Positions 17,130 through 64,000 of a DNA stretch of 64,000 bases are shown here, one piece after another. This DNA is from Albidovulum inexpectatum. GTDB lineage: Bacteria > Pseudomonadota > Alphaproteobacteria > Rhodobacterales > Rhodobacteraceae. Each line of letters starts with the position of its first letter. The first letter of the stretch is position 1. The position numbers and the translations under genes are program-made. The stretch covers positions 124,001 to 188,000 of the forward strand of contig NZ_PRDS01000005.1 of assembly GCF_002927635.1 (NCBI RefSeq), in the 5' to 3' direction. The notes beneath the pieces were generated by a model. The model saw only the letters and a program-made list of their open reading frames with translations, did no database searches and was not told the origin of the DNA.

Positions 17130-17239
17130 GCGGGGTCATGCCGGGGTACGAAAATCGTTCAAACTTGCAACCGATCCCGCGTGACACGACTCATGTTCTG
17201 TGGTCTCCTTGAACCGAGTTCACAGGAGAGGAGAGGCCT

Positions 17240-17407
17240 ATGTCGCTTGGATCGCACCTGCAGGAACTTCGCAAGAAGCACCAGCACCTTTCGGAAGCCG
17301 TCGAGAAGGCCCAGCGCCAGCCTGGCTATGACGAACTGGCAATTGCCGAAATGAAGAAGAAGAAACTTCGCCTGAAGGAAGAGATCACGCGGCTCAGTCA
17401 AGCCTGA
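17240..17407 (+). CDS. YdcH-like small coiled-coil protein (DUF465)
   Basis: 55 residues, MSLGSHLQELRKKHQHLSEA onward, highly charged and predicted helical with heptad-like spacing, matching the short DUF465/YdcH family of unknown function. A strong purine-rich ribosome site (AGGAGAGGAGAGG) precedes the ATG. The last 14 nt overlap the convergent EamA gene. Confidence 0.85.
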   Translation: MSLGSHLQELRKKHQHLSEAVEKAQRQPGYDELAIAEMKKKKLRLKEEITRLSQA

Positions 17408-18275
17408 CCGGGGCTTTGCGCTGGCTGCCGCGGGCGGCCAGCGCTGCGCCCAGGGTGATCAGCAGTGCCGCAAGGCCGATTCGCCACGTCGCTGGAGCAA
17501 GTCCCAAGCCGATCAGGACGAGAGTGGACAACAGCGGCGCAGCATAGGCCGAAACACCCAGAAGCTGAATGTCGCCGCGTTTCACGCCGATATCCCAGAT
17601 GTAGAACGCCAGTCCCACGGGCCCAAGGCCCAAGGCCAGCACTGAAAGCCAGCCCCATTCGGTATCTGGCCAACGGGGCGTTTCAAAGGCAAGATGCGCG
17701 AGCGCCGAAATGATCGCGGTGCCGATGCAGAAGACGGCTACAGAGGCGGTCGGAACCTGTCCAAGGCGTCGCGAGATGACTGAATAGCCCGACCAGGTGA
17801 GTGACGCCAGAAAGGCCAGGGCAAGCCCCCAGATTTGTTGCAGCTGCACCTGTGCCGGCTGCTTGATGACGATCAGCGCCGCCCCCGCAAAGGCGACCAG
17901 CGCGCCCAGAACATGCATGCCGGTAAGCCGCTCGCCCGGCAGAAGGCCCGAGAACAGCACAATGAACAACGGCCAGAGATAGGCGATCAGGCTGGCCTCG
18001 GCCGGGGGCGCAAGGCGCAGGGCCGAGAAATACAGCAGGTGATAGCCGCACAGGCCGGCCGTGCCGAACAGATAGACCCGCAAGGGCACATGGCGCAGTT
18101 GAGCCCATTGGCCGGTCAAGGCCAGCCATATGACCCCGACAGCCCCGCCGAGGGCGAAACTCGTCGCGTTCAGCAACAGCGGCGGCATGGGTTCGGTCCC
18201 GACCGTGAAAAGCGCCAGCAAGGCCCACAAGAGTACCGCCCCAAATCCGATGGCCGTCGCGCGAGATCTGCTCAT
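17394..18275 (-). CDS. EamA/DMT-family inner-membrane transporter
   Basis: 293 residues with about ten hydrophobic segments arranged as two EamA repeats (for example LLWALLALFTVGTEPMPP and PAEASLIAYLWPLFIVLFSGLLPGE split by loops). Members export metabolites such as amino acids; the substrate cannot be inferred. The start at 18275 has GGAAAG upstream; an ATG at 18290 lacks a ribosome site. It follows phaB on the same strand, 112 bp away, with a GTTGCAACCTGGTGCAAC near-palindrome at 18319-18336 between them. Confidence 0.87.
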   Translation of the reverse strand: MSRSRATAIGFGAVLLWALLALFTVGTEPMPPLLLNATSFALGGAVGVIWLALTGQWAQLRHVPLRVYLFGTAGLCGYHLLYFSALRLAPPAEASLIAYLWPLFIVLFSGLLPGERLTGMHVLGALVAFAGAALIVIKQPAQVQLQQIWGLALAFLASLTWSGYSVISRRLGQVPTASVAVFCIGTAIISALAHLAFETPRWPDTEWGWLSVLALGLGPVGLAFYIWDIGVKRGDIQLLGVSAYAAPLLSTLVLIGLGLAPATWRIGLAALLITLGAALAARGSQRKAPVRLD

Positions 18276-49190: not shown

Positions 49191-50204
49191 TCAGGCCGGT
49201 TCAGGTTGCGCAAGCGCTTCGGTCAGCGGGCCGGGGAAGTGGCAGGCCACGGCATGGGACTGGCCGGTCAGCAGCGGAACCTGGGCGGCACAAAGCTCGC
49301 CTGCGCGCGGACAGCGCGTGCGGAACACGCAGCCCGAAGGCGGCGACATGGGCGAGGGCAGATCGCCTTCCAGCGGGATCACGCGCTTTGCCCGTTCGGC
49401 CTTCGGATCCGGGATCGGCACCGCCGACAGCAGCGCCTGCGTATAGGGATGCTGGGGATCGGAGTAGAGATCGTGGCTCGACGCGACTTCCATTTCGCGC
49501 CCCAGATACAGCACCATCACCCGGTCCGAGATGTGCTTCACCACCGACAGGTCATGCGCGATGAAGATCATGGCCAGGCCAAGATCACGCTGCAATTCGT
49601 CCAGAAGATTGATGACCTGCGCCTGGATCGACACGTCCAGCGCCGAAACCGGCTCGTCGCAGATCAGCAGCTTCGGTTCGACGATCAGCGCGCGCGCGAT
49701 GCCGATGCGCTGACACTGGCCCCCCGAGAATTCGTGCGGATAGCGGTTGATCTGGTTCGGCAACAGGCCGACCCGGTCCATCATCTGCTTGACCCGTTCC
49801 CTGACCTCGGTCCGGGACAGGCCCGGACGATGTGTCCGCAGGGGTTCGGCAATGATCTGGCCGACGGTCATGCGGGGATTCAGGCTGGCCAGTGGGTCCT
49901 GGAAGACCATCTGGATGTCCGCGCGGTATTTCAGCATTTCCCGGCGCGAAAGCGACAGAAGGTCGGTCTTGCCCTGCCACAAGACGCGCCCCGTGGCCGG
50001 CACCATCCGGATGAGAGCGCGGGCAAGGGTCGACTTGCCGCAGCCCGATTCCCCCACGATGCCCAGCGTTTCGCCGGGTTGCAGATCGAAGGTAATGCCG
50101 TTCACCGCATGCAGCAGCCGCGGCTTGCTCCACGGCAGATCGCCCGCGCGACGGATCTCGAATGTCACGCGCAGATCTTCGACACGAAGCAGGGGGGCAG
50201 TCAT
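49191..50204 (-). CDS. oppF: Oligopeptide ABC transporter ATPase (OppF type)
   Basis: 337 residues with Walker A GESGCGKST, signature FSGGQCQR, Walker B LLICDEPVSALD and the C-terminal oligopeptide/dipeptide motif with cysteines (GCVFRTRCPRAGELC), possibly an iron-sulfur site. Pairs with OppD. Last gene of the oppA-B-C-D-F operon. Confidence 0.9.
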   Translation of the reverse strand: MTAPLLRVEDLRVTFEIRRAGDLPWSKPRLLHAVNGITFDLQPGETLGIVGESGCGKSTLARALIRMVPATGRVLWQGKTDLLSLSRREMLKYRADIQMVFQDPLASLNPRMTVGQIIAEPLRTHRPGLSRTEVRERVKQMMDRVGLLPNQINRYPHEFSGGQCQRIGIARALIVEPKLLICDEPVSALDVSIQAQVINLLDELQRDLGLAMIFIAHDLSVVKHISDRVMVLYLGREMEVASSHDLYSDPQHPYTQALLSAVPIPDPKAERAKRVIPLEGDLPSPMSPPSGCVFRTRCPRAGELCAAQVPLLTGQSHAVACHFPGPLTEALAQPEPA

Positions 50205-51169
50205 GCGATTTCCTCCAGGCTGCGGTTGCAGGCGCGCAGGCGCCCGGGCGCGAATTCCGTCAGGGGGGCAAGATGGTCCAGGCAGTCCTCACCCGCATGG
50301 GCGCAGCGCGGCGCAAACGGGCAGCCCCGGTCCTCGCGCGTCATGTTCGGCGGGCTGCCGGGGATGCTTTCCAGCTGGTCGCCTTCGCGGTCCACGCGCG
50401 GAATGGCGCGTAGCAGGCCGCGGGTATAGGGGTGCGATGGCGTCTCGAACAGCGGATCGGTAGGGCTTTGTTCCATCACCTTGCCGCCATAGAGCACCAT
50501 GACCTGCCTGCAGAACCCGGCGACGACGCCAAGGTCGTGCGTGATCAGGATCGTGGCCATCGCGAATTCGCGCTGCAGCTCGGCCAGAAGCGACATGATC
50601 TGCGCCTGAACCGTGACATCCAGTGCCGTGGTCGGTTCGTCCGCGATCAGCAGTTCCGGTCTGCAAAGCAGCGCCATGGCGATCATCACCCTCTGGCGCA
50701 TCCCGCCCGAAAATTCGTGCGGATAAAGATGCACCCGGTTCGCCGCGTCGGGGATTTTCACCGCATCCAGCATCCGGATCGCTTCGCGCACGGCCTGAGC
50801 CCTGGACATGCCCTTGTGATGGGTCAGAACCTCGGCCATCTGGTCGGATACGCGCATATACGGGTTCAGCGAGGTCATCGGGTCCTGGAACACCATCGCG
50901 ATGCGGTTTGCCCGGATCGGATTGATGACCTTCGGCGGAGCGTTCAGGATCTCCTGACCGTCGAACAGGACCGATCCGCGCGCGCGCCCATTGCGTGCAA
51001 GAAGGCCCATGATGGCGAACGAAAGCTGGCTCTTGCCCGAACCGCTTTCGCCCACGATGCCCAGCGTCTCGCCCCGTTCCAGCGTGAAGCTGACGCCATT
51101 GACGGCATTGACCGTGCCGTCGGGCGTCTCGAAGCTGACGCCCAGATCCCTTACTTCCAGCAATGCCAT
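50201..51169 (-). CDS. oppD: Oligopeptide ABC transporter ATPase (OppD type)
   Basis: 322 residues. Walker [10 protein letters not shown] (as in E. coli OppD), signature FSGGMRQR, Walker [13 protein letters not shown], and the C-terminal cysteine motif [15 protein letters not shown]. Start [13 protein letters not shown]; its stop overlaps the oppF start. The frame continues upstream into oppC without homology. Confidence 0.9.
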
Positions 51170-51170
51170 T

Positions 51171-52097
51171 TCAGCGATCCTTAGGGTCCAGTGCATCACG
51201 CAGGCCATCGCCCACAAAGAAGAAGGCAAACAGCGTGATGACGAAGAAGAACAGGGGGAAGCCCAGCTGCCAGAGCGTGCCATAGGCCATGGTCCGGGCC
51301 CCTTCCGAGATCAGCGCCCCCCACGAGGTCAGCGGCTCTTGCACGCCAAGGCCAAGGAAGCTGATGAAGCTTTCGGTCAGGATCATCAGCGGCACCAGCA
51401 GCGTGGCATAGACCGCGACCACGCCCAGCAGGTTGGGCACGATGTGACGGCGGATGATCGTGAAGGTGGGAACGCCGGTGGCCTGCGCGGCCTCGATGAA
51501 TTCCTTGTGCTTCAGGCTCAGCGTCTGGCCACGGACGATGCGCGCCATGTCCAGCCACGAGATCAGACCGATGCCGATGAACAGCATCGACATGGATCGC
51601 CCGAACATGACCAGCAGAAGGATCAGCACGAACATGTAGGGGATCGACATCAGGATATCCACGGTGCGCATCATGATGCTGTCGATCCGGCCGCCCAGAT
51701 AGCCCGCCGTCGCGCCATAAAGCGTGCCCACGATCACCGCGATGGCCGAACCCACGATCCCCACCATCAACGAGATCCGCGTGCCTTGAACCGTGCGCGC
51801 GAACAGGTCGCGGCCCAGGTCGTCGGTTCCGAAATAGTGGCCGTTCGCGATCGACGGGCCGCCCAGCTCGGCGACTTGCCCCATGACCGAGAAGTCCAGC
51901 TCTTCGTTCGACCAGACGGCGATCATGTCGCCGAAGATCGCGAACAGCGCCACCAGCACCAGCACGATCAGGCCGCCGACCGCCGCCTTGTTGTGGAAGA
52001 AGCGCGCGCGCGCGTCGGCCCACAACGAGCGGCCCTTGATTTCCTGCTCGGCCAGCCGGTCGGCCAGCCGCTGCATCTTGGTTGAGTCCACCACCAT
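51171..52097 (-). CDS. oppC: Oligopeptide ABC transporter permease (OppC type)
   Basis: 308 residues: cytoplasmic N-terminus, a first helix (AAVGGLIVLVLVALFAIFG), a periplasmic segment with GTDDLGRDLFAR, then five helices and the EAA loop (EFIEAAQATGVPTFTIIRRHI) that docks to the ATPases. One nucleotide separates it from oppD. Confidence 0.92.
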   Translation of the reverse strand: MVVDSTKMQRLADRLAEQEIKGRSLWADARARFFHNKAAVGGLIVLVLVALFAIFGDMIAVWSNEELDFSVMGQVAELGGPSIANGHYFGTDDLGRDLFARTVQGTRISLMVGIVGSAIAVIVGTLYGATAGYLGGRIDSIMMRTVDILMSIPYMFVLILLLVMFGRSMSMLFIGIGLISWLDMARIVRGQTLSLKHKEFIEAAQATGVPTFTIIRRHIVPNLLGVVAVYATLLVPLMILTESFISFLGLGVQEPLTSWGALISEGARTMAYGTLWQLGFPLFFFVITLFAFFFVGDGLRDALDPKDR

Positions 52098-52100
52098 GGG

Positions 52101-53024
52101 TCAGTACCGGATCTTGGGGTCAATCCACGCATAGAGGATGTCGACCACCAGGTTGAACAGGATCGTCAGCGCGCCGACCAGGATCGTGATGCCCAGCATC
52201 ACCGCGTAGTCCCGGTTCAGAGCGCTGTCCACGAAGGCCTTGCCGATGCCGCCGGTCGAGAAATACATGTCCACGACGACCGAGCCAGTGATCATCGTCA
52301 CGAAGGCCGGACCAAGATACGAGATCACCGGCAACAGCGCGGGCTTCAGCGCATGGCGCAGGATGATCTTGCGTTCCGGCAGCCCCTTGGCGCGGGCGGT
52401 GCGGATATGGTTGGAGTTCAGCACCTCAAGCATCGACGATCGCGTGATCCGCGCGATCGAGGCCATGAATGAAGTCGAGAGCGCGATCACCGGCATGACC
52501 AGGTATTGCCATTGGCCACCCTCCCATCCGCCGCCGGGCAGCCAGCGCAGCCACAGCGTGAAGATCAGAACAAGGATGGGCGCCATCACGAAGTTGGGCA
52601 GGACCTGCGCGCCGATCGAAACTCCGACGGCCAGGTAGTCCAGCCACGTGTTGTGCCGGATCGCGGCGACGACGCCCAGCGTCACCCCAACCGTCACGGC
52701 CAGCAGGAACGAGATCGAACCATAGGTCAGCGTGACGGGGAAGCCCTGAGCGATGATCTCGTTCACCGTCCGGTCCTTGTAGATGAAGGACGGGCCGAAA
52801 TCGAAATGCGCCACGATGCCCCAGACATAGTTGACCATCTGCTTCCACAGCGGCTGATCCAGGCCGTATTTCGCCTCGAGATTGGCCAGGACCTGCGGCG
52901 GCAGGCCGCGTTCGGTCGTGAACGGGCCACCCGGCGCGGCGCGCATCAGCAGGAAAGAGATGATGATCAGCAGCAGAAGCGTCGGGATCGCGACGGCCAG
53001 GCGCTTGAGAATGTAGGAAAACAT
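52101..53024 (-). CDS. oppB: Oligopeptide ABC transporter permease (OppB type)
   Basis: 307 residues with six transmembrane helices and the EAA-like loop NSNHIRTARAKGLPERKIILRH region. N-terminal MFSYILKRLAVAIPTLL is typical of OppB/DppB. Three nucleotides separate it from oppC. A GC hairpin lies between it and oppA. Confidence 0.92.
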   Translation of the reverse strand: MFSYILKRLAVAIPTLLLLIIISFLLMRAAPGGPFTTERGLPPQVLANLEAKYGLDQPLWKQMVNYVWGIVAHFDFGPSFIYKDRTVNEIIAQGFPVTLTYGSISFLLAVTVGVTLGVVAAIRHNTWLDYLAVGVSIGAQVLPNFVMAPILVLIFTLWLRWLPGGGWEGGQWQYLVMPVIALSTSFMASIARITRSSMLEVLNSNHIRTARAKGLPERKIILRHALKPALLPVISYLGPAFVTMITGSVVVDMYFSTGGIGKAFVDSALNRDYAVMLGITILVGALTILFNLVVDILYAWIDPKIRY

Positions 53025-53048
53025 CAGTGAACCCCACCGAAAAGGGAA

Positions 53049-53077
53049 GGGACGCGCCAGCCGCGCCGGCGCGCCCC
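53049..53077 (-). other. Hairpin between oppA and oppB
   Basis: GGG(A)CGCGCC pairs with GGCGCGCCC with a one-base bulge; a pyrimidine tract with TTTT follows on the minus strand. Such elements often raise binding-protein mRNA over permease mRNA. Confidence 0.45.
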
Positions 53078-53094
53078 ATCGGTTTCAGAAGACG

Positions 53095-54708
53095 TCAGTT
53101 GGCGACGCGGTACATGTCCTTGACGTACCAGTTCTGCATCAGGTTGTTCAGGCCCATGCCGCGCAGGTCGGGCTTGATCATCTCGACCTTGGTGTAGTGG
53201 TAGATCGGCGCAAAGGGCATGTCTTCGGCCAGGATCTCCTCGGCGCGCTTGTACAGCGGGGCCGGGTTGTCCGCGGTCTTGGACTCCTTCATCAGCCGGT
53301 CATATTCCTCGTTGAAATACTTGCCGTTGTTGTGGCCCGAATACGAGGTGAACAGGTCCAGATAGGTCGAGGCCTCGTTGTAGTCGCCGCACCACGCATA
53401 GCGCGCCACCTCGAAGTCCTGGTTCTGCAGCTTGTCGGTGTGGACCTTCCATTCCATGTTGTTCAGGGTCAGGTCGACGCCGATCTTCTTCCAGAACTGC
53501 TGGACCGCGATCGCGATCTTCTTGTGGCTTTCCGAGGTGTTGTAGTTCAGCGTCAGCTTCAGCGGGTTGTCCGGGCCAAAGCCTGCTTCCTTCATCAGCT
53601 CCATCGCCTTGGTGGTGCGTTCGTCCTGGGTCCAGGTCGCATAGTCGATCTCGGGCATCTCGAAGCCCTCGGTCGCGGGATGCGTCCAGTTGTAGGCCGG
53701 CGCCTGACCGCCCTGCAGGATGTTGTTCACGATGATGTCACGGTCGATCGCATAGCTCAGCGCCTTGCGCACGCGGACATCCTTCAGCGGCTCGGGGCCC
53801 TTTTCGGGGTCGAGGTTGAACAGGTAGATGTACGAGCACGATTGCGGCACCGAAACCGCCTGATCGGGATATTCTGCCTTCAGGCGCGGATACTGGCCGG
53901 CCGGGATCTGGACGCGGTCCAGCTCGCCCGCCAGATAGCGGGTCAGAGCGGCATTTTCGTCGTTGATCGTCAGCGCGGTGATCTTGTTGATGATCGTGTG
54001 TTCGTCATCCCAGTACAGCGGGTTGCGCTCCATCACGACCTTTTCGCCAAGGATGTGTTCCTTCAGCACATAGGCGCCGTTGCCGACGAGGTTGCCCGGT
54101 TCGGTCCACTTGTCGCCGAACTGCTCGATGACCTTCTGGTTGACGGGGAAGGTCGAGGCATGGGTCAGCATCTTGGGGAAATAGGGCAGGGGGGCTTCGA
54201 TCGTGACCTCGAGCGTGTGATCGTCGATCGCGCGAACGCCCAGCTCCTCGACCGGCTTCTTGCCGGCGATGATGTCGGCGGCGTTCTTGACCTGCATCAG
54301 CTCCATGTACCAGGCGTATTCCGAGGCGGTCTTGGGATCGGCCAGACGGCGCCAGGCATAGACGAAGTCGTGGGCCGTCACCGGATCGCCGTTCGACCAT
54401 TTCGCGTTGTCGCGCAGGTGGAAGGTGTAGACGGTCTTGTCCTCGGACACGTCATAGGAGGTCGCCACGCCCGGGACCAGGGCGCCGTTCTGATCTTCGT
54501 TGAACAGGCCTTCGAACAGCTGACGCAGCACGCCGGACCCTTCGACGTCGGTGTTGATCTGCGGGTCCATCGACTTGATCGCGTCGAGCAGCCAGTAGGT
54601 GTATTCCTGGTTCTCGGCCAGGACATCACCGGGCTGGACCTGGGCGGCAAGCGTGGGCAGTGCCAGCGCCGCGCTCAGCACGGTGGAAAGAAGCAGGCTG
54701 CGAGTCAT
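53095..54708 (-). CDS. oppA: Oligopeptide ABC transporter substrate-binding protein (OppA type)
   Basis: 537 residues, family 5 solute-binding protein with a signal peptide (MTRSLLLSTVLSAALALPTLA). It has the peptide-binding blocks YTFHLRDNAKWSNGDPVTAHDF and VRVRKALSYAIDRD. ATG 54708 is favoured because AGGAGG is 8 nt upstream; ATG 54714 would leave only 2 nt. First gene of the operon; binds peptides in the periplasm, preference unknown. Confidence 0.93.
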   Translation of the reverse strand: MTRSLLLSTVLSAALALPTLAAQVQPGDVLAENQEYTYWLLDAIKSMDPQINTDVEGSGVLRQLFEGLFNEDQNGALVPGVATSYDVSEDKTVYTFHLRDNAKWSNGDPVTAHDFVYAWRRLADPKTASEYAWYMELMQVKNAADIIAGKKPVEELGVRAIDDHTLEVTIEAPLPYFPKMLTHASTFPVNQKVIEQFGDKWTEPGNLVGNGAYVLKEHILGEKVVMERNPLYWDDEHTIINKITALTINDENAALTRYLAGELDRVQIPAGQYPRLKAEYPDQAVSVPQSCSYIYLFNLDPEKGPEPLKDVRVRKALSYAIDRDIIVNNILQGGQAPAYNWTHPATEGFEMPEIDYATWTQDERTTKAMELMKEAGFGPDNPLKLTLNYNTSESHKKIAIAVQQFWKKIGVDLTLNNMEWKVHTDKLQNQDFEVARYAWCGDYNEASTYLDLFTSYSGHNNGKYFNEEYDRLMKESKTADNPAPLYKRAEEILAEDMPFAPIYHYTKVEMIKPDLRGMGLNNLMQNWYVKDMYRVAN

Positions 54709-55201
54709 GGTCATGACCTCCTGTCAATTTTTGGTATTTGTCTTGGGTCGCGCCCTTCGCGGCGCGGAATGGCACGAGCCTAGTGATCGGACGCGGATTG
54801 GCAAGACAAATGCGTCGGAACAAATGCCATACGTCGCGTCATTCTGCCGGTTCGATTGGGCAGAATGACTGACCTGTTGTCATGAGTGCCAGAACGCCCG
54901 CCGGGCGACCGGTGCGGCGGCCATTCAGGCGACTCAAGTGGCGAAGATCGTTCAACAAACGGGGCGCATCCACTTTTTACCATGATGAACGCCCCCGATT
55001 CCTGCGCCGCAACAAAGATTCGCTCGGCGGGAACTGTATCCAGTTCGTTAATATTCCCTGTTGTCGCCCTATTGTTGCCCCGATTGCCGGGCTGGATCGC
55101 AACGGCAGGGGGATCCCCTGCGAGCTGATGGCAGAAGTGAAAGTGCATGAGGGTTGGATGACCGCCGCGCGCACGCGGATCCGACCATCGGGGGCAAGGC
55201 G
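54709..55201. other. 493-bp divergent intergenic region between oppA and the kinase gene
   Basis: Short open frames occur here on both strands but none has a ribosome site, family motif or codon pattern that supports a gene. The notable element is the perfect 11-bp inverted repeat at 54838-54869. Promoters for oppA (leftward) and for the kinase cluster (rightward) must lie here; no clear -35/-10 pair could be chosen. Confidence 0.6.
54838..54869. promoter_or_regulatory. Perfect 11-bp inverted repeat upstream of oppA
   Basis: GTCATTCTGCC and GGCAGAATGAC flank a 10-nt spacer. It lies about 130 bp upstream of oppA and 330 bp upstream of the kinase gene. No T-run follows, so a regulator binding site is likelier than a terminator. 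Confidence 0.5.
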
Positions 55202-57553
55202 ATGACACTGAACGAGCCTGCGAACGGGCCGGAATTCGAAGGTACGATGGACGAGTTGCAGCCGGGCACGACCCTGCTGCACGGCCAGTATCGCATCACG
55301 CGCTTTCTGAATAACGGCGGCTTTGGCATCACCTATCTGGCCAAGGATAGCCTGGACCGCGACGTAGTCATCAAGGAATGCTTTGCCGACGCCTTCTGCC
55401 GCCGCACGAACACGATCGTGACGGCACGATCGCGGGCCCATCAGAACGAGCTGAAATCGATCATCCGCCACTTCATCGAGGAAGCCCGACGGCTGGCGAA
55501 GCTGAAGCATCCCAATATCGTCGGGGTCCACCAGGTCTTCGAGGACAACGACACGGCCTATATGGCCATCGACTATATCGAAGGGAAGGACCTGCTGGAT
55601 CTTCTGGACGATCCGGCGACCCGACTGACGCCTGAACAGATCGTGGCGATCACGCGCAAGCTTCTGTCGGCGATCGGCTATGTGCACGATCACGGGCTGC
55701 TGCATCGCGACATCTCGCCCGACAATATCCTGATCACGAAGGATGGCGAACCGATCCTGATCGACTTTGGCGCGGCGCGCGAACATGCCGCCAGCGGCGG
55801 TCGCAAACATTCGGCGCTGCGCGTGGTCAAGGACGGCTATTCCCCGCAGGAATTCTATATTCCGGGCAGCGAGCAGGGGCCGTGGAGCGATCTCTACGCG
55901 CTGGCCGCGTCTCTGTATCACGCGATCAAGGGCGAGCCGCCGGTCAATGGTCAGGCGCGTCTCGCCGCGATCGCCGAGCAGCGCCCCGATCCCTATGAGC
56001 CCCTGGCCGGTCGCATTCCGGGCTATCCTCCGGGCTTCCTCGAGGCCATCGACAAGGCGATGAGCACCCGACCCGCCGACCGCCTGCAATCGGCGGCGGA
56101 ATGGCTGGCCATGCTGGACAATCCGCAAGCCGCATCGGCGGGGGCTGATCCTGAATCAGCCGTTTCATGGCTGATGCGCGAAGCCGGCGCGGACGAGGAC
56201 AAGGCCGAAGACCCCAAGCCCGTCGCAGCGGCCAGTGCCGAGCTTGCCGAGCGCAAGCGCGGAGGCGGCGCTCGTGCGGCCGTATCGGTCCTGGCATTGA
56301 TCGCGGCCCTTGGCGCGGGCGCATACTTCTATCTTGACGAGCAAAAGGATTCTGCCGCGCCAGTTGCTGCATTGCCGTCGTCGGATGTCGCCGCGACGAT
56401 GAGTGACTCCGCAACAGAGGTTGCCGAGCAAACGTCCAGCGCGGCTGATCAGACAGGCACGGCGATATCCGCGCCGGCAGCCGCCACGGATCCCGCGTCG
56501 GCGGCGGTGATCGAACCTGTCCAGACCACAGACGAATCCGTGGATGGCGAGCCGGTCCCTGCGCCTGCGACGGCCTACGACATGGCCGCGCCGGGATCGG
56601 AAAGCCCGAAGCCGGCGAGTGCGACCGAAAACGACGGTGCCGGGGCCGGAGCGGCCATGGCGGCCGCAGAGCCGGCTGCCGTTTCGCAGGCTTCGGTCGA
56701 GAATGTGCCAGCAGATCCTGCGGCAGATCCGGTTGCGGACGAAACGCCAGTCGTTGGCATAACCGAGTCCCAGGTCGATCGTGCCGCTGCAGAGGCGGCC
56801 GAAGCAGCGGCGCTGCCGGATGCGTCACAAGATGCGGCCGGTGGGTCGGAAGATTCCGCGCCGACCGAAATCGTGGCCCCGGTCGAGCAGGCTGCGGTTG
56901 ATGCGCAGCCCGTGATCGAGGAAGAAAAACCTGCCGCGACTGGCCCCGTCCTTCAGCAGCAGGTCGAATTCGCCCTGTGGGATGTCGAGGTTCCGTTCGA
57001 CTATGAGACGATTGCCCGTGGCAATTCCCGGTTTGCGAGCGTGACGCAGGTTCCCGAAAGTGTCGCCGCCGAGATCGGAGGCTGGCTGCGTCCGGGCGTC
57101 GAGATCCTGACCGTCAATGACAAGCCGCTGACAGAAGCGGCACCGTTCGAAATCCGGATCCTGACCGACATGGTGATCGATCCGGACGGCAAGACGCGCA
57201 TGACGGTCCGGTACAAGGACCCGGATACACTCCGGTTCGATCTGGCGCTGCTGGCAGTGCCCGTCATACGCCGGATAGGCTTGGCCGATGGTACAGTGCT
57301 GGTTGCGGCCATGCGGGACGGGGTCTGGCAGACCCGCGTGGCCGAGACGGGCGCGAATGCTGACGGTGTTCTGCAGCCGGGCGACATCATTCGTCGGGAG
57401 ACCCAGACCGGCGCCGTGTTCGAGACGGCCGAGGCGGCCGAGATCGCCATGGCGGCACTGGTGGAAATGGGGGCCGAAGCCGCGCGGCTGGAAGTCCTGC
57501 GCGATGGCGAAACGCTGGTGGCAGAGCTGCCGCTGGCGCGCGCTCCGGAATAG
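55202..57553 (+). CDS. Membrane-anchored serine/threonine protein kinase with C-terminal PDZ-like region
   Basis: 783 residues. Kinase domain about residues 28-305: glycine loop NNGGFGITYLAK, lysine 58 in VIKECF, HRDISPDN (Asp 170), DFG as IDFGAA (188-190) and an activation segment VVKDGYSPQE. One transmembrane helix lies at about 359-378. An Ala/Pro/Glu-rich extracytoplasmic linker of about 220 residues leads to a PDZ-like C-terminus (about 600-783; GGWLRPGVEILTVNDKPL, LQPGDII). All catalytic residues are present. Start MTLNEPANG chosen for GGGGCAAGG upstream. Heads the cluster with FHA and PP2C genes. Confidence 0.9.
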   Translation: MTLNEPANGPEFEGTMDELQPGTTLLHGQYRITRFLNNGGFGITYLAKDSLDRDVVIKECFADAFCRRTNTIVTARSRAHQNELKSIIRHFIEEARRLAKLKHPNIVGVHQVFEDNDTAYMAIDYIEGKDLLDLLDDPATRLTPEQIVAITRKLLSAIGYVHDHGLLHRDISPDNILITKDGEPILIDFGAAREHAASGGRKHSALRVVKDGYSPQEFYIPGSEQGPWSDLYALAASLYHAIKGEPPVNGQARLAAIAEQRPDPYEPLAGRIPGYPPGFLEAIDKAMSTRPADRLQSAAEWLAMLDNPQAASAGADPESAVSWLMREAGADEDKAEDPKPVAAASAELAERKRGGGARAAVSVLALIAALGAGAYFYLDEQKDSAAPVAALPSSDVAATMSDSATEVAEQTSSAADQTGTAISAPAAATDPASAAVIEPVQTTDESVDGEPVPAPATAYDMAAPGSESPKPASATENDGAGAGAAMAAAEPAAVSQASVENVPADPAADPVADETPVVGITESQVDRAAAEAAEAAALPDASQDAAGGSEDSAPTEIVAPVEQAAVDAQPVIEEEKPAATGPVLQQQVEFALWDVEVPFDYETIARGNSRFASVTQVPESVAAEIGGWLRPGVEILTVNDKPLTEAAPFEIRILTDMVIDPDGKTRMTVRYKDPDTLRFDLALLAVPVIRRIGLADGTVLVAAMRDGVWQTRVAETGANADGVLQPGDIIRRETQTGAVFETAEAAEIAMAALVEMGAEAARLEVLRDGETLVAELPLARAPE

Positions 57554-57563
57554 GTATCGGTGG

Positions 57564-57582
57564 CCGCGGAGGAAATCCGCGG
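57564..57582 (+). other. Short hairpin after the kinase gene
   Basis: CCGCGGA and TCCGCGG form a 7-bp stem around GGAAA, 11 nt after the stop. No T-tract follows. The rest of the 211-bp gap shows no gene. Confidence 0.4.
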
Positions 57583-57764
57583 TCCCGCGATTGGTCATGA
57601 GGCGTCACCCGGGCCGAACCTGCCCGCGTCTCAGGTAAGAGTGCCGGATTGCTCAGGCAGTTTCCGGAACGGGTTCTCACAGGTCAAGATAACGTTTTCA
57701 GGGCTGCACGCGACGTGCCGCACCGAGGGGGCTTCAGGCTCCAGCGAAGGAAAGGGAAGAGGAC

Positions 57765-58838
57765 ATGCACAGCGCCATCAGATTTCTGAAGACGACAGCG
57801 ATCGCGCTGGCCCTGTGTGCCGGGGCTGCCGGGGCGCAGGAGGCATGCAAGACCTACCGCGTCGCGCCGGGCGACACGCTTCTTAAGATTACCAAGCGCG
57901 CCTATGGCAACGACAATTGGCGCATGATCTACGAGGCCAACCAGGATGTCTTGCGCAATCCCGACATTATCGAGGTGGGCGACGTCCTGCGCATCCCCTG
58001 CACCGACGGCACCGTGCCCAGCCAGACGCCGGCGATCGCGGCCGAGGCTTCGCCTGCCGCGGTTGCAGCCGCAGCTGACGAGGAGCGCCCCATCGTCCTG
58101 ATCACGGGCAATGACTTCCCCCCCTTCACGGATGAAAGCCTGCCCGGACGTGGCGTCTTTACCATTCTTGTCGAGACGGCAGCCTATCGTGCCGATCCCG
58201 AAAAGAAGGTCGAGGTGAAATTCGTCAACGACTGGGAGGCGCATCTGGACCTGCTGCTGCCGGTCCTGGCATTCGACGGATCCTTCCCCTGGTCCCGACC
58301 CGATTGCGAACGGACCGACACCTTGTCGGCACATGACCGGAACCGCTGCGAGAATTACGACTTCTCCGACCCGTTCTATGAGGTCGTGGACGGCTTCTTT
58401 GCCCGCGTCGGCAGCGGCTATGACGAGGCGCTGGACTATGCCGACTTGAAGGGCGCGCGCATCTGCCGGCCCGAGGGCTATTCGACGGCCCATCTGGATG
58501 AAGCGGGCCTGAGCGCTCCGGCCGTCGTCATGGTGCGGCCGCCGCTTGTTGCGACCTGCTTCGAGCAGCTGATGGCGGGATCCGTCGATGTCGTGTCCGT
58601 GGACACGCTGGTGGGCGCGAACGCGATCGCGGACATGTCCCTGGATGGTCAGGTGGTCGAGAACGCCAATCTTGGCGCGGTCAAGGAACTGTATGTCCTG
58701 GTTCACAAGAAGAACCCGCGCGGGCGCGAGGTGCTCGACCTGCTGAATTCCGGCCTGCAGAAGATGGTCGAGTCCGGCGAATGGTACGACATCGTCTCAT
58801 CCTACCTGCGTGAGCGGATGCAGGCGGGGCGCGGCTGA
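57765..58838 (+). CDS. Secreted LysM + solute-binding-like protein, paralogue 1
   Basis: 357 residues: signal peptide (about 1-24, ending GAAGAQ), LysM domain (about 28-77; YRVAPGDTLLKITKRAYG, IIEVGDVLRIPC), an Ala-rich linker, and a periplasmic binding protein-like domain of the family 3 type (about 110-350; LKGARICRPEGY, GEWYDI). Paired cysteines suggest disulfides. LysM binds peptidoglycan, so it is probably a wall-tethered ligand binder. No permease is linked, so transport is doubtful. The most divergent of three tandem copies. Confidence 0.8.
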   Translation: MHSAIRFLKTTAIALALCAGAAGAQEACKTYRVAPGDTLLKITKRAYGNDNWRMIYEANQDVLRNPDIIEVGDVLRIPCTDGTVPSQTPAIAAEASPAAVAAAADEERPIVLITGNDFPPFTDESLPGRGVFTILVETAAYRADPEKKVEVKFVNDWEAHLDLLLPVLAFDGSFPWSRPDCERTDTLSAHDRNRCENYDFSDPFYEVVDGFFARVGSGYDEALDYADLKGARICRPEGYSTAHLDEAGLSAPAVVMVRPPLVATCFEQLMAGSVDVVSVDTLVGANAIADMSLDGQVVENANLGAVKELYVLVHKKNPRGREVLDLLNSGLQKMVESGEWYDIVSSYLRERMQAGRG

Positions 58839-58903
58839 CGACACGGTGCGGGACGGTTCCGGCGCAATCGGCTGACCGAAGAAAAATGAAAAGGAAGAAC
58901 GAT

Positions 58904-60001
58904 ATGATCCGGGGAATTCGCAGGTCGCTGTATGCCGTGACCGCTGCGGTGGCGATGATGGCTGGCGCGGGCGCATCGGCCCAGGAGGCATGTACGACCT
59001 ACACCGTGAAGGAAGGGGAAAGCCTCGCCTCGATCGCCCAGGCGGCCTATGGCAGCTATGACTACCAGATGATCTTCAACGCCAACCGGGACGTGCTGGG
59101 GGGCAATCCGAACGCGGTCGCGCCCGGCACGGTGCTGCGCCTTCCCTGCGAGGATGGCAGCCTGCCCGGGGCAGAGACGGCACAGGCGATCATCCAGCGC
59201 GAGGAGGCGCGCAGCGCCGGCCGCAGCATTGACGGGGAGTATCGTCCGCCAATCAAGTTTCTGGGGGGCGACGACTGGAAGCCGTTCATGGACAAGAGCC
59301 TGACCGGCGGCGGGATGCTGGTGCGGCTGTCCACCACGGCGGTCAAACGCGGCGGGAACGATCGCGACTACATCATGTCCTATGTGGATGATTGGGGTGC
59401 TCATCTGACCACGCTGCTTGAAATCGGCGGATTTGATATCGCGATCGGCTGGACTCCGCCGCCCGATTGCTCGAAGCGCGATCTGCTGGACGAAGCCGCC
59501 CTGTATCGTTGCGACAATCTTGTCTTTTCGCTGCCGATCTACGAGTCGGTCACATCCTACTGGTCCCGCAAGGACAGCGAATATGCCGGTGTCCGCACAT
59601 GGTCGGATTATGCCGGCGCACGGATCTGCCGCCCCGAGGGTTGGTCGACCTTCGATCTGACCGTCGAGGGCCTGGTCGAACCCGTCGTGTCCTGGGTCTA
59701 TCTGCCAACGCCGAAGGACTGCATCAGGGCCGCGGTGGATGGCAAGGTCGACATGGTTTCTCTCGATCTTGAAAGCGCGCTTGGCGCGATCGCCGAGATT
59801 CCCGGCTCGGAAGAGGTGTTGGAGCCGAACCCGAACCTGTCGAAGGTCGAGCCTCTGAACTGGGTTGCGCACAAGAAGAATCCGCGGGCCGAGGAAATCA
59901 TCGAGCTTCTGAATGCCGGGCTGAACGAGATGCGCGAAACCGGAGAATGGTACGCGATCATTCAGGACAGTCTGGCCGAATACAACAAGATCGGCGGGTA
60001 A
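58904..60001 (+). CDS. Secreted LysM + solute-binding-like protein, paralogue 2
   Basis: 365 residues from MIRGIRRSLYAV, with AAGGAAGAA upstream. Signal peptide to about residue 28 (GASAQE), LysM (YTVKEGESLASIAQAAYG, VAPGTVLRLPCEDG), then the binding-protein-like domain (YAGARICRPEGWSTF, MRETGEWYAIIQDS). Very similar to paralogue 3 in the LysM and in the C-terminal block. The 65-bp gap to paralogue 1 is consistent with one transcript. Confidence 0.8.
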   Translation: MIRGIRRSLYAVTAAVAMMAGAGASAQEACTTYTVKEGESLASIAQAAYGSYDYQMIFNANRDVLGGNPNAVAPGTVLRLPCEDGSLPGAETAQAIIQREEARSAGRSIDGEYRPPIKFLGGDDWKPFMDKSLTGGGMLVRLSTTAVKRGGNDRDYIMSYVDDWGAHLTTLLEIGGFDIAIGWTPPPDCSKRDLLDEAALYRCDNLVFSLPIYESVTSYWSRKDSEYAGVRTWSDYAGARICRPEGWSTFDLTVEGLVEPVVSWVYLPTPKDCIRAAVDGKVDMVSLDLESALGAIAEIPGSEEVLEPNPNLSKVEPLNWVAHKKNPRAEEIIELLNAGLNEMRETGEWYAIIQDSLAEYNKIGG

Positions 60002-60018
60002 GCCGAGACGCCCATGCA

Positions 60019-60040
60019 CCGGCGCCCGTCCGGGCGCCGG
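60019..60040 (+). other. Hairpin between LysM paralogues 2 and 3
   Basis: CCGGCGCCC and GGGCGCCGG form a perfect 9-bp stem with a GTCC loop. No T-run follows; possible mRNA processing or partial termination element. Confidence 0.5.
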
Positions 60041-60101
60041 GCACGTCAAGTCCCGTCCCCATGGGCCACCACCATCGGGGACGCACCGGAGGGAAGAAAC
60101 G

Positions 60102-61199
60102 ATGAAGACCACGATCCTGAAACTTGGACGGGCAACCGTCGTCGGTGCTGCCGTACTGCTTGCGCCCGGGCTCGCCGCGGCGCAGGAGGCTTGCTCGATC
60201 TACACCGTCAAGGACGGCGACAGCCTGGGTTCGATCGCGCAGGCCGCATTCGGGTCCTTCGACTACCAGATGATCTTCAACGCCAACCGGAACCTGATCG
60301 AAAACCCCAACAAGCTGGTTCCGGGCACGCAGCTGAAGATCCCGTGCGAGGACGGCAGTCTTCCGGGAGAACAGGCCGCCGAGGCGATCATTCAGGAGCA
60401 GGAGGCAAAGCAGGCCGCGACGCGCAAGCGCTCGAACCTGTATGAGCCGCCGATCAAGCTGGTTTCCGGGTCGGGATGGGAGCCCTATACGGGCGAAAAC
60501 CTGAAGGGCGGGGGCATGCTGGTGCGTCTGGCCACGACCGCGCTTCAGCGGGGCGGCAACGACCGGGAATTCACGCTCAGCTTCGTCAATGACTGGCAGG
60601 CGCATCTGGACACGCTGCTGCCGCTTGGCGCATTCGACATTTCGATCGCCTGGTACAAGCCCGAGGATTGTTCGAACCTCGAGGCAATGGACGAGAATAC
60701 CCGTTATCGCTGCACCCAGCTGGACTGGTCGCTGCCGATCTACGAATCGGTGTCGGCGTACTGGACGCGTACGGACAGCGACTATGCGAATGTGACGGCC
60801 TATTCGGATTATGCCGGGGCACGCGTCTGCCGGCCCGAAGGCTTCTCGCTGGCCGAGTTGTCCTCGGAAGGCCTGGTCGAGCCGGTCATCACGCTGGTTC
60901 AGCCGCCGCGACCCGAGGACTGTTTCCGCATGCTGGTCAATGGCGAGGTGGACATGACGCTTCTTGACCTGGAGGGCGGCGACGCAGCCCTGAAGGCGGT
61001 GCCGGAGGCGCAGGGTGTCGTGGAACCGAACCCGAACCTGTCCAAGCTGCAGACGATTCACTTCGTCTCGCACAAGACCAATCCCCGGGGCAGGGTCTAT
61101 CTGACCCTTCTGAACCGAGGCCTGAACGAGATGCGCGAAACCGGCGAATGGTACGCGATCATCCAGGACAGCCTGGCGGACTTCAACAACCTGAAATGA
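60102..61199 (+). CDS. Secreted LysM + solute-binding-like protein, paralogue 3
   Basis: 365 residues with signal peptide (ending LAAAQE), LysM (YTVKDGDSLGSIAQAAFG, KLVPGTQLKIPCEDG), linker, and family-3-like binding domain (YAGARVCRPEGF, MRETGEWYAIIQDS). Strong ribosome site GGAGGGAAGAAACG. Shares the motif DYQMIFNANR with paralogue 2, showing recent duplication. Same likely envelope location and unknown ligand. Confidence 0.8.
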   Translation: MKTTILKLGRATVVGAAVLLAPGLAAAQEACSIYTVKDGDSLGSIAQAAFGSFDYQMIFNANRNLIENPNKLVPGTQLKIPCEDGSLPGEQAAEAIIQEQEAKQAATRKRSNLYEPPIKLVSGSGWEPYTGENLKGGGMLVRLATTALQRGGNDREFTLSFVNDWQAHLDTLLPLGAFDISIAWYKPEDCSNLEAMDENTRYRCTQLDWSLPIYESVSAYWTRTDSDYANVTAYSDYAGARVCRPEGFSLAELSSEGLVEPVITLVQPPRPEDCFRMLVNGEVDMTLLDLEGGDAALKAVPEAQGVVEPNPNLSKLQTIHFVSHKTNPRGRVYLTLLNRGLNEMRETGEWYAIIQDSLADFNNLK

Positions 61200-61254
61200 G
61201 CGTGATCGGGGCCACGTGACATTCCCTGTCGCGGCCCCGGCGCGATCCGGCGGC

Positions 61255-61329
61255 GGGTCACAAATTGGCCGCAATTGCCGAAGACCTTCTTCGCGTCATC
61301 TTTTGGCCAGAATGCCGGGTCACAAATTG
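61255..61329. repeat. Two copies of GGGTCACAAATTG upstream of the FHA gene
   Basis: Identical 13-mers at 61255-61267 and 61317-61329, 62 bp apart, in the 181-bp gap before the FHA gene. They may be a regulator site or promoter duplication. A separate stem CGGGGCC/GGCCCCG at 61207-61239 follows the preceding gene. Confidence 0.55.
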
Positions 61330-61380
61330 AGACAAAGCTGGGCCGAGATCGGCCCGCCAGTGGATTGGAAAGGCAAGACA

Positions 61381-62256
61381 ATGGGCATTTTCGGAAAGCT
61401 GCTTGGCCGGTCGAACAGCTCGGGTCAATCCTATCGTGAGGACGATGAGGCCGAGCTGCAGGTTCCGCCTCTGTCGGAAGTCGTGCGCGAGCGGCGCGAT
61501 CCTGCGCCCCGACCGACCTCCCAGGGCGCGGCGCAGGCCGTGGATGAGGATGCGCTGGATCTGGAGCGCCTGTCCCGGTCCCTTGAGAGCGATGAACCCG
61601 AGGGGGGTGCGGCCTCTTCTGCGCCGGGCGCGGTGAATATCTGGGATCTCGAGGATGACGAAGACCAAGCTGCGGGACAGCCGTCCGCGGCGCCCGCGCC
61701 CCAGGCGCGGCCGCAGCCCGCGCCCGTTGCGGATAGCGGCATCGACCTGACCTCGCGCCTGCCTTCGGGCAATGCACGTCGTCGGCGCGCCAAGACGCGG
61801 CTTCTGGGGTTCGAGAAATCCGATGGTGAGATCGTCGATCTGTTCAACAATCCCGCTCAGTCGCGCGCGGCCAGCGTTCGGTATCCGATTGGCTGGCTGG
61901 TCGTGGTCAAGGGGCCTGGACGCGGCGAATCCTTTGCCTTGCGCAGTGGCCTGTCCCAGATCGGCCGTGGCGAGGACCAGACAATTCCACTGGATTTCGG
62001 AGACACGGCCATCTCGCGCAGCAATCATGCAAGCATCGTCTATGACCCCGAAACCCATGAAACGCTTCTGGGCCACGGCGGCAAGGCGAATATCGTTCGG
62101 CTGAACGGCAAGCCCCTTGTCAGCACCGAGAAGCTGAAGAACGGCGACATGATCCGTATCGGAGAGACGACGCTGCGCTTCGTTGCCCTGTGCGATGCCG
62201 AGTTCAACTGGGCTGGCGAGGACGGCGAGGAGGCCGACGATGTGGAAATCGCCTGA
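61381..62256 (+). CDS. FHA-domain phosphothreonine-binding protein
   Basis: 291 residues. The first about 165 are disordered, acidic and Pro/Ala-rich, with a basic patch RRRRAKTRLLGFE (about 133-145). The FHA domain spans about 170-275 with IGRGED, ISRSNHASIVYD and LNGKPL, which carry the phosphothreonine-binding Arg, Ser and His. Cytoplasmic reader for the kinase encoded upstream; Thr 139 is a possible kinase site (inference). GGAAAGG precedes the ATG. Overlaps the PP2C gene by 17 bp. Confidence 0.88.
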   Translation: MGIFGKLLGRSNSSGQSYREDDEAELQVPPLSEVVRERRDPAPRPTSQGAAQAVDEDALDLERLSRSLESDEPEGGAASSAPGAVNIWDLEDDEDQAAGQPSAAPAPQARPQPAPVADSGIDLTSRLPSGNARRRRAKTRLLGFEKSDGEIVDLFNNPAQSRAASVRYPIGWLVVVKGPGRGESFALRSGLSQIGRGEDQTIPLDFGDTAISRSNHASIVYDPETHETLLGHGGKANIVRLNGKPLVSTEKLKNGDMIRIGETTLRFVALCDAEFNWAGEDGEEADDVEIA

Positions 62257-63196
62257 GCCGCGTTTCGACGTCGCTTCGGCGATCTGCCAGGGCGGGCGCG
62301 ACTATCAGGAAGACGCGATCGTCACGGACTTTCCCGCGGGCACCGATGTCGGTGTCGCCGTGCTCGCCGATGGCATGGGCGGTCATGCGGCGGGGGATGT
62401 CGCGTCCAAGATCGTCGTGACCGAAGTCTTCAGCGAACTGAAGTTCGAAAGTGCCAATTTCCAGGAATTGGAAGCCAACATCCCCAACTATCTGACCATG
62501 GCCGCGGCCAATGCGAATGCCTCGGTTCGTGACTATGTCAGCGAACACCCCAAGGCGGTAGGGATGGGATCGACCCTTGTCGCCGTGGTGGTGGTGGAAA
62601 ACCGTCTGTACTGGATGTCGATCGGCGACTCCCCGCTTTACCTGTTCCGCAATGGCAAGCTGCGGCAGCTGAACGAGGACCATTCCCTTGCGCCGCGCAT
62701 CGACGCGATGGTGGCGGCGGGCCTGATGGACCCCGAGGTGGGGCGGAACCATCCCGATCGCAACTGCCTGACCTCGGCGATCATGGGAGACAGGGTCGAA
62801 CGGTCGCAATGCCCGCGCGAACCCTTTGTGCTGGAGGTCGGGGATATCGTGATCCTGTCCAGCGATGGTCTTCAATATCTCGAGGAGCAGCGGATCGAGA
62901 AGATTCTCAACAAGTATCGTCGCCGGAAAAGCGCAGAGATTGCCGAGCGCCTGCTGGATGCGATCATCGACCTGGCAGATCCCGACCAGGACAATGTATC
63001 TTTTGCCGTGATCAAGCTGAACCACAACAAGCCTGCCGAACGAAAGATGCGTCGCAGGCCAGAGGACGCCGCGGGCGATGATTCGGCTCATGCGACACGC
63101 GTGGTTCCCGTCGACAAGGCAGCTTTCACGCCGACCGAGGCAAAGTCGGGCGGTGACGGCCAACAGCCCTTCAGGCTGATCGCAGGAGGCAAGTGA
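62240..63196 (+). CDS. PP2C-family serine/threonine phosphatase
   Basis: 318 residues. Metal ligands and signature motifs: GGRDYQEDA, VLADGMGGHAAGD, GMGSTLVA, SIGDSPLY, LSSDGLQYL and DPDQDNVSF. It would remove phosphates placed by the cluster's kinase. The start MWKSPEPRFD lies inside the FHA gene's end with GAGGAGG upstream, implying coupled translation. The C-terminal about 60 residues are a basic, disordered tail. Confidence 0.92.
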   Translation: MWKSPEPRFDVASAICQGGRDYQEDAIVTDFPAGTDVGVAVLADGMGGHAAGDVASKIVVTEVFSELKFESANFQELEANIPNYLTMAAANANASVRDYVSEHPKAVGMGSTLVAVVVVENRLYWMSIGDSPLYLFRNGKLRQLNEDHSLAPRIDAMVAAGLMDPEVGRNHPDRNCLTSAIMGDRVERSQCPREPFVLEVGDIVILSSDGLQYLEEQRIEKILNKYRRRKSAEIAERLLDAIIDLADPDQDNVSFAVIKLNHNKPAERKMRRRPEDAAGDDSAHATRVVPVDKAAFTPTEAKSGGDGQQPFRLIAGGK

Positions 63197-63198
63197 CC

Positions 63199-64000
63199 AT
63201 GAAGACGACCGTTCGGCCCGAAATCGTCGACTCGCTGCGTGCTCTGACCGGCAATCTTGATCTGCCGATACATGTCCGCAAATCGGCCGAAGCGTTGCTT
63301 GCGCGTCTGACCCAGCCGGTTCGCGTGACGTTGTTCGGCAAGCGGGGCAGCGGCAAGTCGAGTATCGCGAATCTTCTGTTGGGCCGACAGATCCTGCCGT
63401 CGGAACGGGAACTGCCCACTCTGTTGGTCTCTGGTGCCAAGCGCGAAGAAGTGCGATGCACGCTTGCCGACGGTACGGTTCGAACACTGGCCCGCTTTGA
63501 TCCGGACGCGGTGGCGGCTCTTGCCCCGATCTATGTCGAGATCGACATGGATCTGCCCGCGCTGGCCAGGATCAGCATCCTGGAAATAGTCGCCCCGACC
63601 CCTGCGGATCTCGAGCGCGCCGTTCGCTGGGCCGACAAGCGGACCGACATCGCCATCTGGTGCAGCCAGGTCTTTGACGAGGAAGAGCGCGCTGTCTGGC
63701 AGGGGGCAAGCGACCGACTGAAGGACCATGCGATTCTGGCCGTGACCCGGGCTGATGAAATGGTGTTGTCCGGCACGCTGGAGGCGACGCTGGCAGATCT
63801 GAACGATCGTGCAATCGAGCACTTCAACCATGTCCTGCCGATTGCCACCCCAGACGCTCTGGCGGCGCGGCGGCCTGACGGCAGCGTCGATCGCGACCGT
63901 ATGGCGCGCAGCGGAGGGCGGGCGCTTGTTGCGACGGTCCTTCGCGAGATCGAGCTTGGTCTTCAGATCGCCACGGATCGTGCGGAACTTCTCATCGCGA
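63199..64000 (+). CDS. P-loop GTPase-like protein (3' end beyond the window)
   Basis: 267 codons visible, starting MKTTVRPEIVDSLRALTG 3 nt after the PP2C stop, with AGGAGG upstream. P-loop GKRGSGKSS at about residues 47-55 and a G4-like TRAD in AVTRADEM resemble dynamin-like/TRAFAC GTPases. The G3 position reads LEIVAPTP in place of DTPG, so the DxxG motif is missing. A helical part begins near the window end. Could be a membrane-remodelling or switch protein that has lost hydrolysis. Confidence 0.7.
   Translation, partial: MKTTVRPEIVDSLRALTGNLDLPIHVRKSAEALLARLTQPVRVTLFGKRGSGKSSIANLLLGRQILPSERELPTLLVSGAKREEVRCTLADGTVRTLARFDPDAVAALAPIYVEIDMDLPALARISILEIVAPTPADLERAVRWADKRTDIAIWCSQVFDEEERAVWQGASDRLKDHAILAVTRADEMVLSGTLEATLADLNDRAIEHFNHVLPIATPDALAARRPDGSVDRDRMARSGGRALVATVLREIELGLQIATDRAELLIA

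Follow-up and report, generated by a model that had tools for sequence, protein, structure and literature searches.

A putative phospho-signalling operon of Albidovulum inexpectatum brings together a kinase, an FHA protein, a phosphatase, dynamin-like proteins and a predicted Roadblock-fold protein

PpkA, Fha and PppA form the threonine phosphorylation pathway of the type VI secretion system (T6SS), in which a kinase, an FHA protein and a PP2C phosphatase are encoded in one operon. The same trio is found in Albidovulum inexpectatum, in a stretch of 64,000 nucleotides (hereafter, the window; positions 124001-188000 of contig C5 of a genome rated 100% complete), as part of an operon that also encodes three secreted hybrids of LysM and a solute-binding protein (SBP)-like half, three dynamin-related proteins and a protein with a predicted Roadblock/LC7 fold. 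The first-pass annotation of this DNA had proposed a kinase-FHA-PP2C circuit outside T6SS, and this was supported: the VipB/TssC sheath was not matched in the source genome (among 14 control genomes, the same search detected it in one, E. coli), and nothing Tss-like was recognised as far as about 17 kb beyond the window (open reading frames [ORFs] of at least 150 aa; translations were read, and Pfam was applied to the operon genes only). Regulation of T6SS in the manner of PpkA-Fha-PppA, which the shared trio might suggest, was ruled out on these two grounds and has a probability close to nil; dynamin-related proteins are found here instead of a sheath gene.

A second system of comparable design is the GlnH-GlnX-PknG-GarA/OdhI pathway of Actinobacteria (PMC6069109, PMC9769921), which has in common with the present locus an SBP-type periplasmic sensor, a Ser/Thr kinase, an FHA protein with an N-terminal Thr and a phosphatase. 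GlnH, an SBP, is proposed there to act upstream (PMC6069109), and PknG phosphorylates OdhI at Thr14, a modification removed by Ppp (PMC9769921). In contrast, kinase and periplasmic tail are here one membrane protein, the candidate sensors carry LysM, the Thr motif differs in sequence, and the circuit is linked to dynamin-related and Roadblock proteins rather than to 2-oxoglutarate dehydrogenase; the likeness to GarA/OdhI lies in position and logic and does not extend to sequence. Bacterial dynamin-like proteins (Nostoc BDLP, 2j68, and the DLP pair 5owv) resemble two of the operon's proteins by profile and are also encoded several together, but here they are linked to a kinase, FHA, PP2C and Roadblock protein and have three members, one without the DxPG motif. 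MglA-MglB and other GTPase-Roadblock pairs place a Roadblock/LC7-fold protein beside GTPases, as predicted here, although the GTPases of this operon are dynamin-like and not small and Ras-like as MglA. Finally, a subset of the GAP1-N2 GTPase-centric systems joins a GTPase, a kinase, a PP2C and extracellular domains such as PDZ; the GTPases of these systems are different ones, accompanied by GAP1, vWA and zinc ribbons, and the words "dynamin" and "roadblock" are absent from the main text of the report describing them (PMC7159879). Searches of an open-access library found no description of the present gene set.

The reading towards which we lean is that this phospho-signalling operon couples the periplasm to dynamin-like proteins, and that outside signals may thereby control membrane remodelling. 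It draws on what was established by computation, i.e., gene content, domains, linkage, the covariation of kinase tail and LysM hybrids, an invariant Thr, the GTPase motifs and a predicted Roadblock fold.

The kinase, the three LysM hybrids, the FHA protein, the PP2C and a P-loop GTPase are all encoded on the + strand between 55202 and 64000 (ORFs, Pfam), in the same-strand order and with the domains that the first-pass annotation had given them. The Hanks-type Ser/Thr kinase (783 aa; 55202-57553; Pfam Pkinase, 8.4e-31, with the domain match at about 55403-55975) has a single transmembrane (TM) segment by hydropathy (about 56267-56323) and a C-terminal PDZ-like tail (56951-57550) that is presumably periplasmic and, by tail comparison and profile match, of the type designated A. 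It is followed by hybrid 1 (57765-58838; LysM at about 57855-57998, SBP_bac_3-like half at about 58338-58811), hybrid 2 (58886-60001) and hybrid 3 (60102-61199), the last two assigned by Pfam and homology, and by the FHA gene (61381-62256, with the start at 61381 set by comparison with relatives and the ORF open from 61216) and the PP2C gene (62240-63196). The first-pass annotation covered the genes as far as 64000 and pointed to those beyond as worth inspecting; the operon extends past this limit. The P-loop GTPase, here G475, starts at 63193 or 63199 and runs past 64000 to L002:12621 (coordinates outside the window are given on locus L002; window position = L002 position + 51999), and four further + strand genes lie beyond the window, namely D705 (L002:12830-14947), D316 (L002:14944-15894), R120 (143 aa; L002:15928-16359) and U262 (262 aa; L002:16400-17188; gene call). 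Past U262, the coding strand switches.

This gene set represents more than a chance neighbourhood, because it recurs in many relatives and is annotated in two plasmid records as well. Of 149 genomes sampled from the order, 59 were matched by the G475 query and 59 by the FHA query, with 57 common to both; a G475-family gene was located within 10 kb of 60 of the 70 FHA copies, and an FHA gene within 10 kb of 60 of the 67 listed G475-family copies (the FHA list contains all 70 rows, while the G475 list omits fragments and weaker second matches at D316 genes). Genes were called at the loci of 20 relatives from this sample. We also scanned named genomes through the best 80 of 537 D705 relatives, among which near relatives are over-represented and some records coincide with those of the 149-genome sample. 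In the 66 of these 80 loci that were assessable, having 7.4 kb or more ahead of D705, genes were scored as present regardless of their order, with the following counts: G475 and D316 (66 each), FHA and PP2C (65 each), the kinase and R120 (62 each) and U262 (58). Some of the R120 and U262 misses fall at contig ends (e.g., L093, L102, L117), and the simple gene caller missed some genes (e.g., D316 in L037, the kinase in L155).

Overall, the core recurs in Rhodobacteraceae, mostly aquatic bacteria. D705 was matched at E 1e-30 in 1 of 240 genomes of a class sample (the source genome itself) and in 4 of 299 genomes of a phylum sample, all of the source genome's family. The two annotated plasmid records, from Ruegeria (811 kb, with four dynamin-family genes) and Leisingera (72 kb), carry near-complete rearranged sets; in Leisingera, G475 adjoins PP2C and FHA, and the D705-U262 block is on the opposite strand. 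Two loci of the Ruegeria type, L052 and L162, contain two D705-like and two further dynamin-family genes, with the hybrids placed after PP2C and not before FHA.

The P-loop GTPase recognised in the window by the first-pass annotation was confirmed, with the change that it is one of three dynamin-related proteins, the one lacking DxPG. Dynamin_N was matched above the Pfam cut-off of 27 by D705 (39.5 bits) and D316 (41.7 bits) and below it by G475 (22-23 bits). Among relatives, the P-loop, DxPG and G4 motifs were each present in 81/81 D705 proteins and in 80/80, 79/80 and 57/80 D316 proteins, respectively; G475 relatives had the P-loop in 74/76 and DxPG in 0/76. The D705 profile matched the bacterial dynamin-like proteins 2j68 (2e-8) and 5owv (1e-7), and G475 too matched solved bacterial dynamin-like proteins by profile. 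A WW-rich segment is conserved in D705 (73/81). The source genome contains a second D705-D316 pair (G000:C1:524925-527986, equivalent to L136:9926-12987). G475 is far longer (755-837 aa) in L126, L128, L129 and L130, and the kinase was not found in two of these loci (L126 and L128); these may perhaps represent a fused or differently regulated version.

Dynamin-like proteins beside a kinase also raise the possibility of stress or anti-phage defence, with the dynamins acting on the membrane upon a kinase signal. In PADLOC, the kinase matched PD-T4-6 models (best 2.6e-48) and D705 matched LeoA (8.1e-11) and LeoBC (1.2e-7); the patchy occurrence of the system (59/149 genomes) and its plasmid copies are consistent with such a role. 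The PADLOC matches, however, concern broad kinase and dynamin domains, and no PADLOC model was matched by FHA, PP2C, G475, U262 or the hybrids; judged from the operon's own genes, we consider defence decidedly improbable.

R120 is predicted to have a Roadblock/LC7 fold. While R120 had no Pfam match and nothing usable from a sequence search of the PDB, the structure of a relative, modelled from a 61-row alignment (pLDDT 86.7), matched 89 PDB chains at E 0.001 or better, with the Roadblock/LC7 domain 3kye_B as the top match (3.6e-6, TM 0.77) and MglB among the others. The best 50 of these 89 chains are Roadblock/LC7 proteins or complexes containing such domains. For U262, the model of a relative (55-row alignment, pLDDT 89.8) had no PDB match at E <= 1e-3, only weak matches to Mon1-Ccz1 and LAMTOR, and Pfam gave nothing usable, with matches in single members and mostly weak. 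In its C-terminal part, the U262 model has helices and strands in an order similar to that of R120, a likeness that is no more than suggestive.

The FHA domain (about 61960-62163) is above the Pfam cut-off (2.7e-6) and is the sole FHA match in the source genome; the PP2C is likewise above the cut-off (PP2C_2, 2.4e-13), and its gene overlaps the FHA gene by 17 bases. The N-terminal tail of the FHA protein contains the motif TRLLGF (61795-61812), which was present in all 79 FHA proteins compared, that of the window included, as TRLIGF (43), TRLLGF (28), TRVLGF (7) or TTFLGF (1), with Thr, Gly and Phe invariant; the initial pattern had matched 27/79, and the 79/79 was reached with a pattern broadened after the sequences had been inspected. 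The stretch before the FHA domain is otherwise variable (beyond the start Met, one Asp is conserved at 91%), except for a basic stretch and the motif itself. The FHA residues G250, R251, S267, R268, H271 and N297 (numbered from the ORF start at 61216) were invariant in the same 79 proteins. Outside the FHA proteins, the motif occurred in 1 of 74 PP2Cs and in no other operon protein. Both hallmarks of the GarA/OdhI type, a conserved N-terminal Thr and an intact set of FHA residues, are present, and we regard the Thr of the motif as a candidate phosphosite.

These features would also fit a nutrient or wall circuit like GlnH-GlnX-PknG-GarA, in which the FHA protein acts chiefly on metabolism or some other target and the dynamins are co-transcribed with a separate role. 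The SBP-like sensor, the kinase and an FHA protein with a conserved N-terminal Thr all have counterparts in GlnH, PknG and GarA (PMC6069109, PMC9769921). The FHA and G475-family genes, on the other hand, stay within 10 kb of each other in most copies (the 60 of 70 given above), even through the Leisingera rearrangement, which argues against a separate role of the dynamins; we regard such a circuit as unlikely.

LysM is above the Pfam cut-off in all three hybrids of the window. SBP_bac_3 was matched by hybrid 1 (4.1e-5, 23.8 bits) and hybrid 2 (E 0.099, 12.8 bits), both below the Pfam cut-off of 26.4, and was not matched in Pfam by hybrid 3, which is homologous to the other two (56% and 39% identity). 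Eight of 12 hybrids matched SBP_bac_3 at E <= 0.1, and the hybrids thus appear similar to family-3 SBPs, below the membership threshold. For the LysM of hybrid 1, the nearest solved structure was the LysM of the potassium-binding protein Kbp, and its SBP half resembles polar amino-acid binding proteins; a profile of the 12 hybrids showed the same LysM and SBP likeness. An Arg that precedes an FSDP-like segment aligns in hybrid 1, ArtJ and AncQR and is invariant across the 12 aligned hybrids; in amino-acid SBPs, this Arg binds the ligand. The source genome has exactly three such hybrids, all within this operon. Directly upstream of the kinase, a divergent oligopeptide-type ABC transporter set (ATPases, permeases and a binding protein, named from translations; 49191-54714, - strand) may be relevant should the signal prove to be a wall peptide.

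Conserved linkage of the LysM hybrids with the genes for kinase, FHA and PP2C was a condition that the first-pass annotation had set on its proposal; such linkage is seen, in a minority of loci only. In the 149-genome sample, the hybrid query at E 1e-10 matched 50 genomes, many with LysM-only proteins. Full-length hybrids numbered 83 in 37 genomes (the list omits LysM-only, partial and fragmented matches, e.g., those of G123 and one of G112), and 26 of the 83, in 11 genomes, were located within 10 kb of an FHA gene. The hybrids were rejected as a core component, given the core loci without them and the 57 unlinked copies. Hybrid pairs were also observed away from any such kinase (L145-L152, L164, and on a Phaeobacter plasmid); one conserved gene (cluster c9) adjoins the pairs in L146-L149.

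The presence of linked hybrids covaries with the kinase tail. Type-A tails numbered 13, in 12 genomes and four genera; a threshold of E 1e-20, chosen after a gap in the E-values had been seen, separates these 13 from 18 other tails. Hybrids were found within 10 kb of 11 of the 13 type-A kinases (three genera) as compared to 0 of 57 other FHA loci (P = 3.6 × 10-11, Fisher's exact test, inflated by shared ancestry). Among the named loci, linked hybrids were found in Defluviimonas, Gemmobacter, Leisingera and a Bugula symbiont, in every case together with a type-A tail; the tail-type pattern used for these loci was written after the tails had been seen and selects the same 11 loci as the list of LysM loci. 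With L100 counted, 11 of 12 named LysM loci have a type-A tail; the L100 hybrid is encoded on the opposite (-) strand at 16370-17875, about 2 kb past U262. The LysM hybrids are, then, optional and go with one type of kinase tail.

The hybrids might instead be bystander ligand- or wall-binding proteins, with the kinase tail sensing something else directly. Consistent with this, 57 of the 83 full-length hybrids have no FHA gene within 10 kb, 9 of the 37 hybrid-bearing genomes lack an FHA match of this type, and most core loci are without linked hybrids. The covariation across three genera nevertheless argues for a connection, even with counts inflated by shared ancestry, as does the recurrence of the pairing in the named Gemmobacter and Leisingera loci at differing positions in the cluster; a bystander role seems improbable in our estimation.

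Trees also bear on the tie between hybrids and kinase tail that the first-pass annotation had suggested, and which gains from the covariation and from a pairing on two D705 lineages. The kinase-domain tree has 74 rows, and the 10 that come from LysM loci fall on a single branch with support 98. On the D705 tree, with 88 rows, the LysM label requires three changes, one of them via L054, the upstream part of which is missing. With 52 rows (L054, L097, L101, L109, L119 and L131 left out and the rest thinned), two label changes remained, and a single clade of LysM loci was rejected for D705 (p-AU 0.0023); the grouping put to this test was one already visible on the 88-row tree. The trees make a good, if not final, case that kinase and hybrids have stayed paired across differing dynamin parts.

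The kinase tail has a marginal PDZ match in Pfam (21.5 bits; cut-off 23.2), and a profile built from six kinase tails matched a DegP-type PDZ at 2.9e-4. The two tail types are homologous to each other (hhalign probability 99.6). The kinase falls outside the PASTA kinases (PknB/Stk1; 148.6 bits against an NCBIfam cut-off of 450), and no PASTA repeat was matched in it by Pfam.

We infer the wiring of the circuit, from ligand to membrane output, as follows. The secreted hybrids would bind peptidoglycan via LysM and a small ligand via the SBP half, and would engage the membrane kinase at its PDZ-like tail, so that the sensors gate the kinase. The kinase would then phosphorylate the invariant Thr of TR(L/V)(L/I)GF in the N-terminal tail of the FHA protein, and the FHA domain would bind the phospho-Thr in cis or in trans, as a GarA/OdhI-like switch that PP2C resets by stripping the phosphate. 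The switch would alter binding of the FHA protein to the dynamin set, the state of which may also be set by the Roadblock protein; D705 and D316 would be the GTPases and G475, without DxPG, perhaps an adaptor. The output could be local tethering, fusion or fission of membranes, e.g., in envelope repair or vesiculation.

Several observations weigh against a coupling of periplasm and dynamin-like proteins of this kind. The kinase was not found in 4 of the 66 assessable named loci and is short (423-505 aa) in some loci, and L120 and L132, the two short kinases whose ends were inspected, have no PDZ-like tail. None of D705, D316 and G475 showed a TM segment, and a membrane role of the dynamin set would follow from family resemblance and the WW-rich segment of D705. 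The second D705-D316 pair of the source genome has no kinase, FHA or PP2C among its called neighbours. As for the sensors, besides the unlinked hybrids and the many core loci without them, two type-A kinases, both in G057, have no linked hybrids, L100 combines a more distant hybrid with the other tail type, and the two-lineage argument depends on one long-branch row, L052.

The earlier interpretation survives in part and with changes, as a circuit outside T6SS with dynamin and predicted Roadblock-fold partners and optional hybrids. It is possible, and we suggest it tentatively, that this is a new kind of system, i.e., a phosphorylation-controlled bacterial three-dynamin/Roadblock machine in which ligand sensors act through a Hanks-type kinase on a GarA-like FHA relay with its PP2C, and whose kinase-LysM part is able to pair with more than one dynamin lineage. 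To our knowledge, the control of bacterial dynamins is little understood. The signals sensed by bacterial Ser/Thr kinases are named as an outstanding question (PMC6069109). As a candidate sensor, kinase, reader, eraser and dynamin output adjoin in one operon, both questions become approachable.

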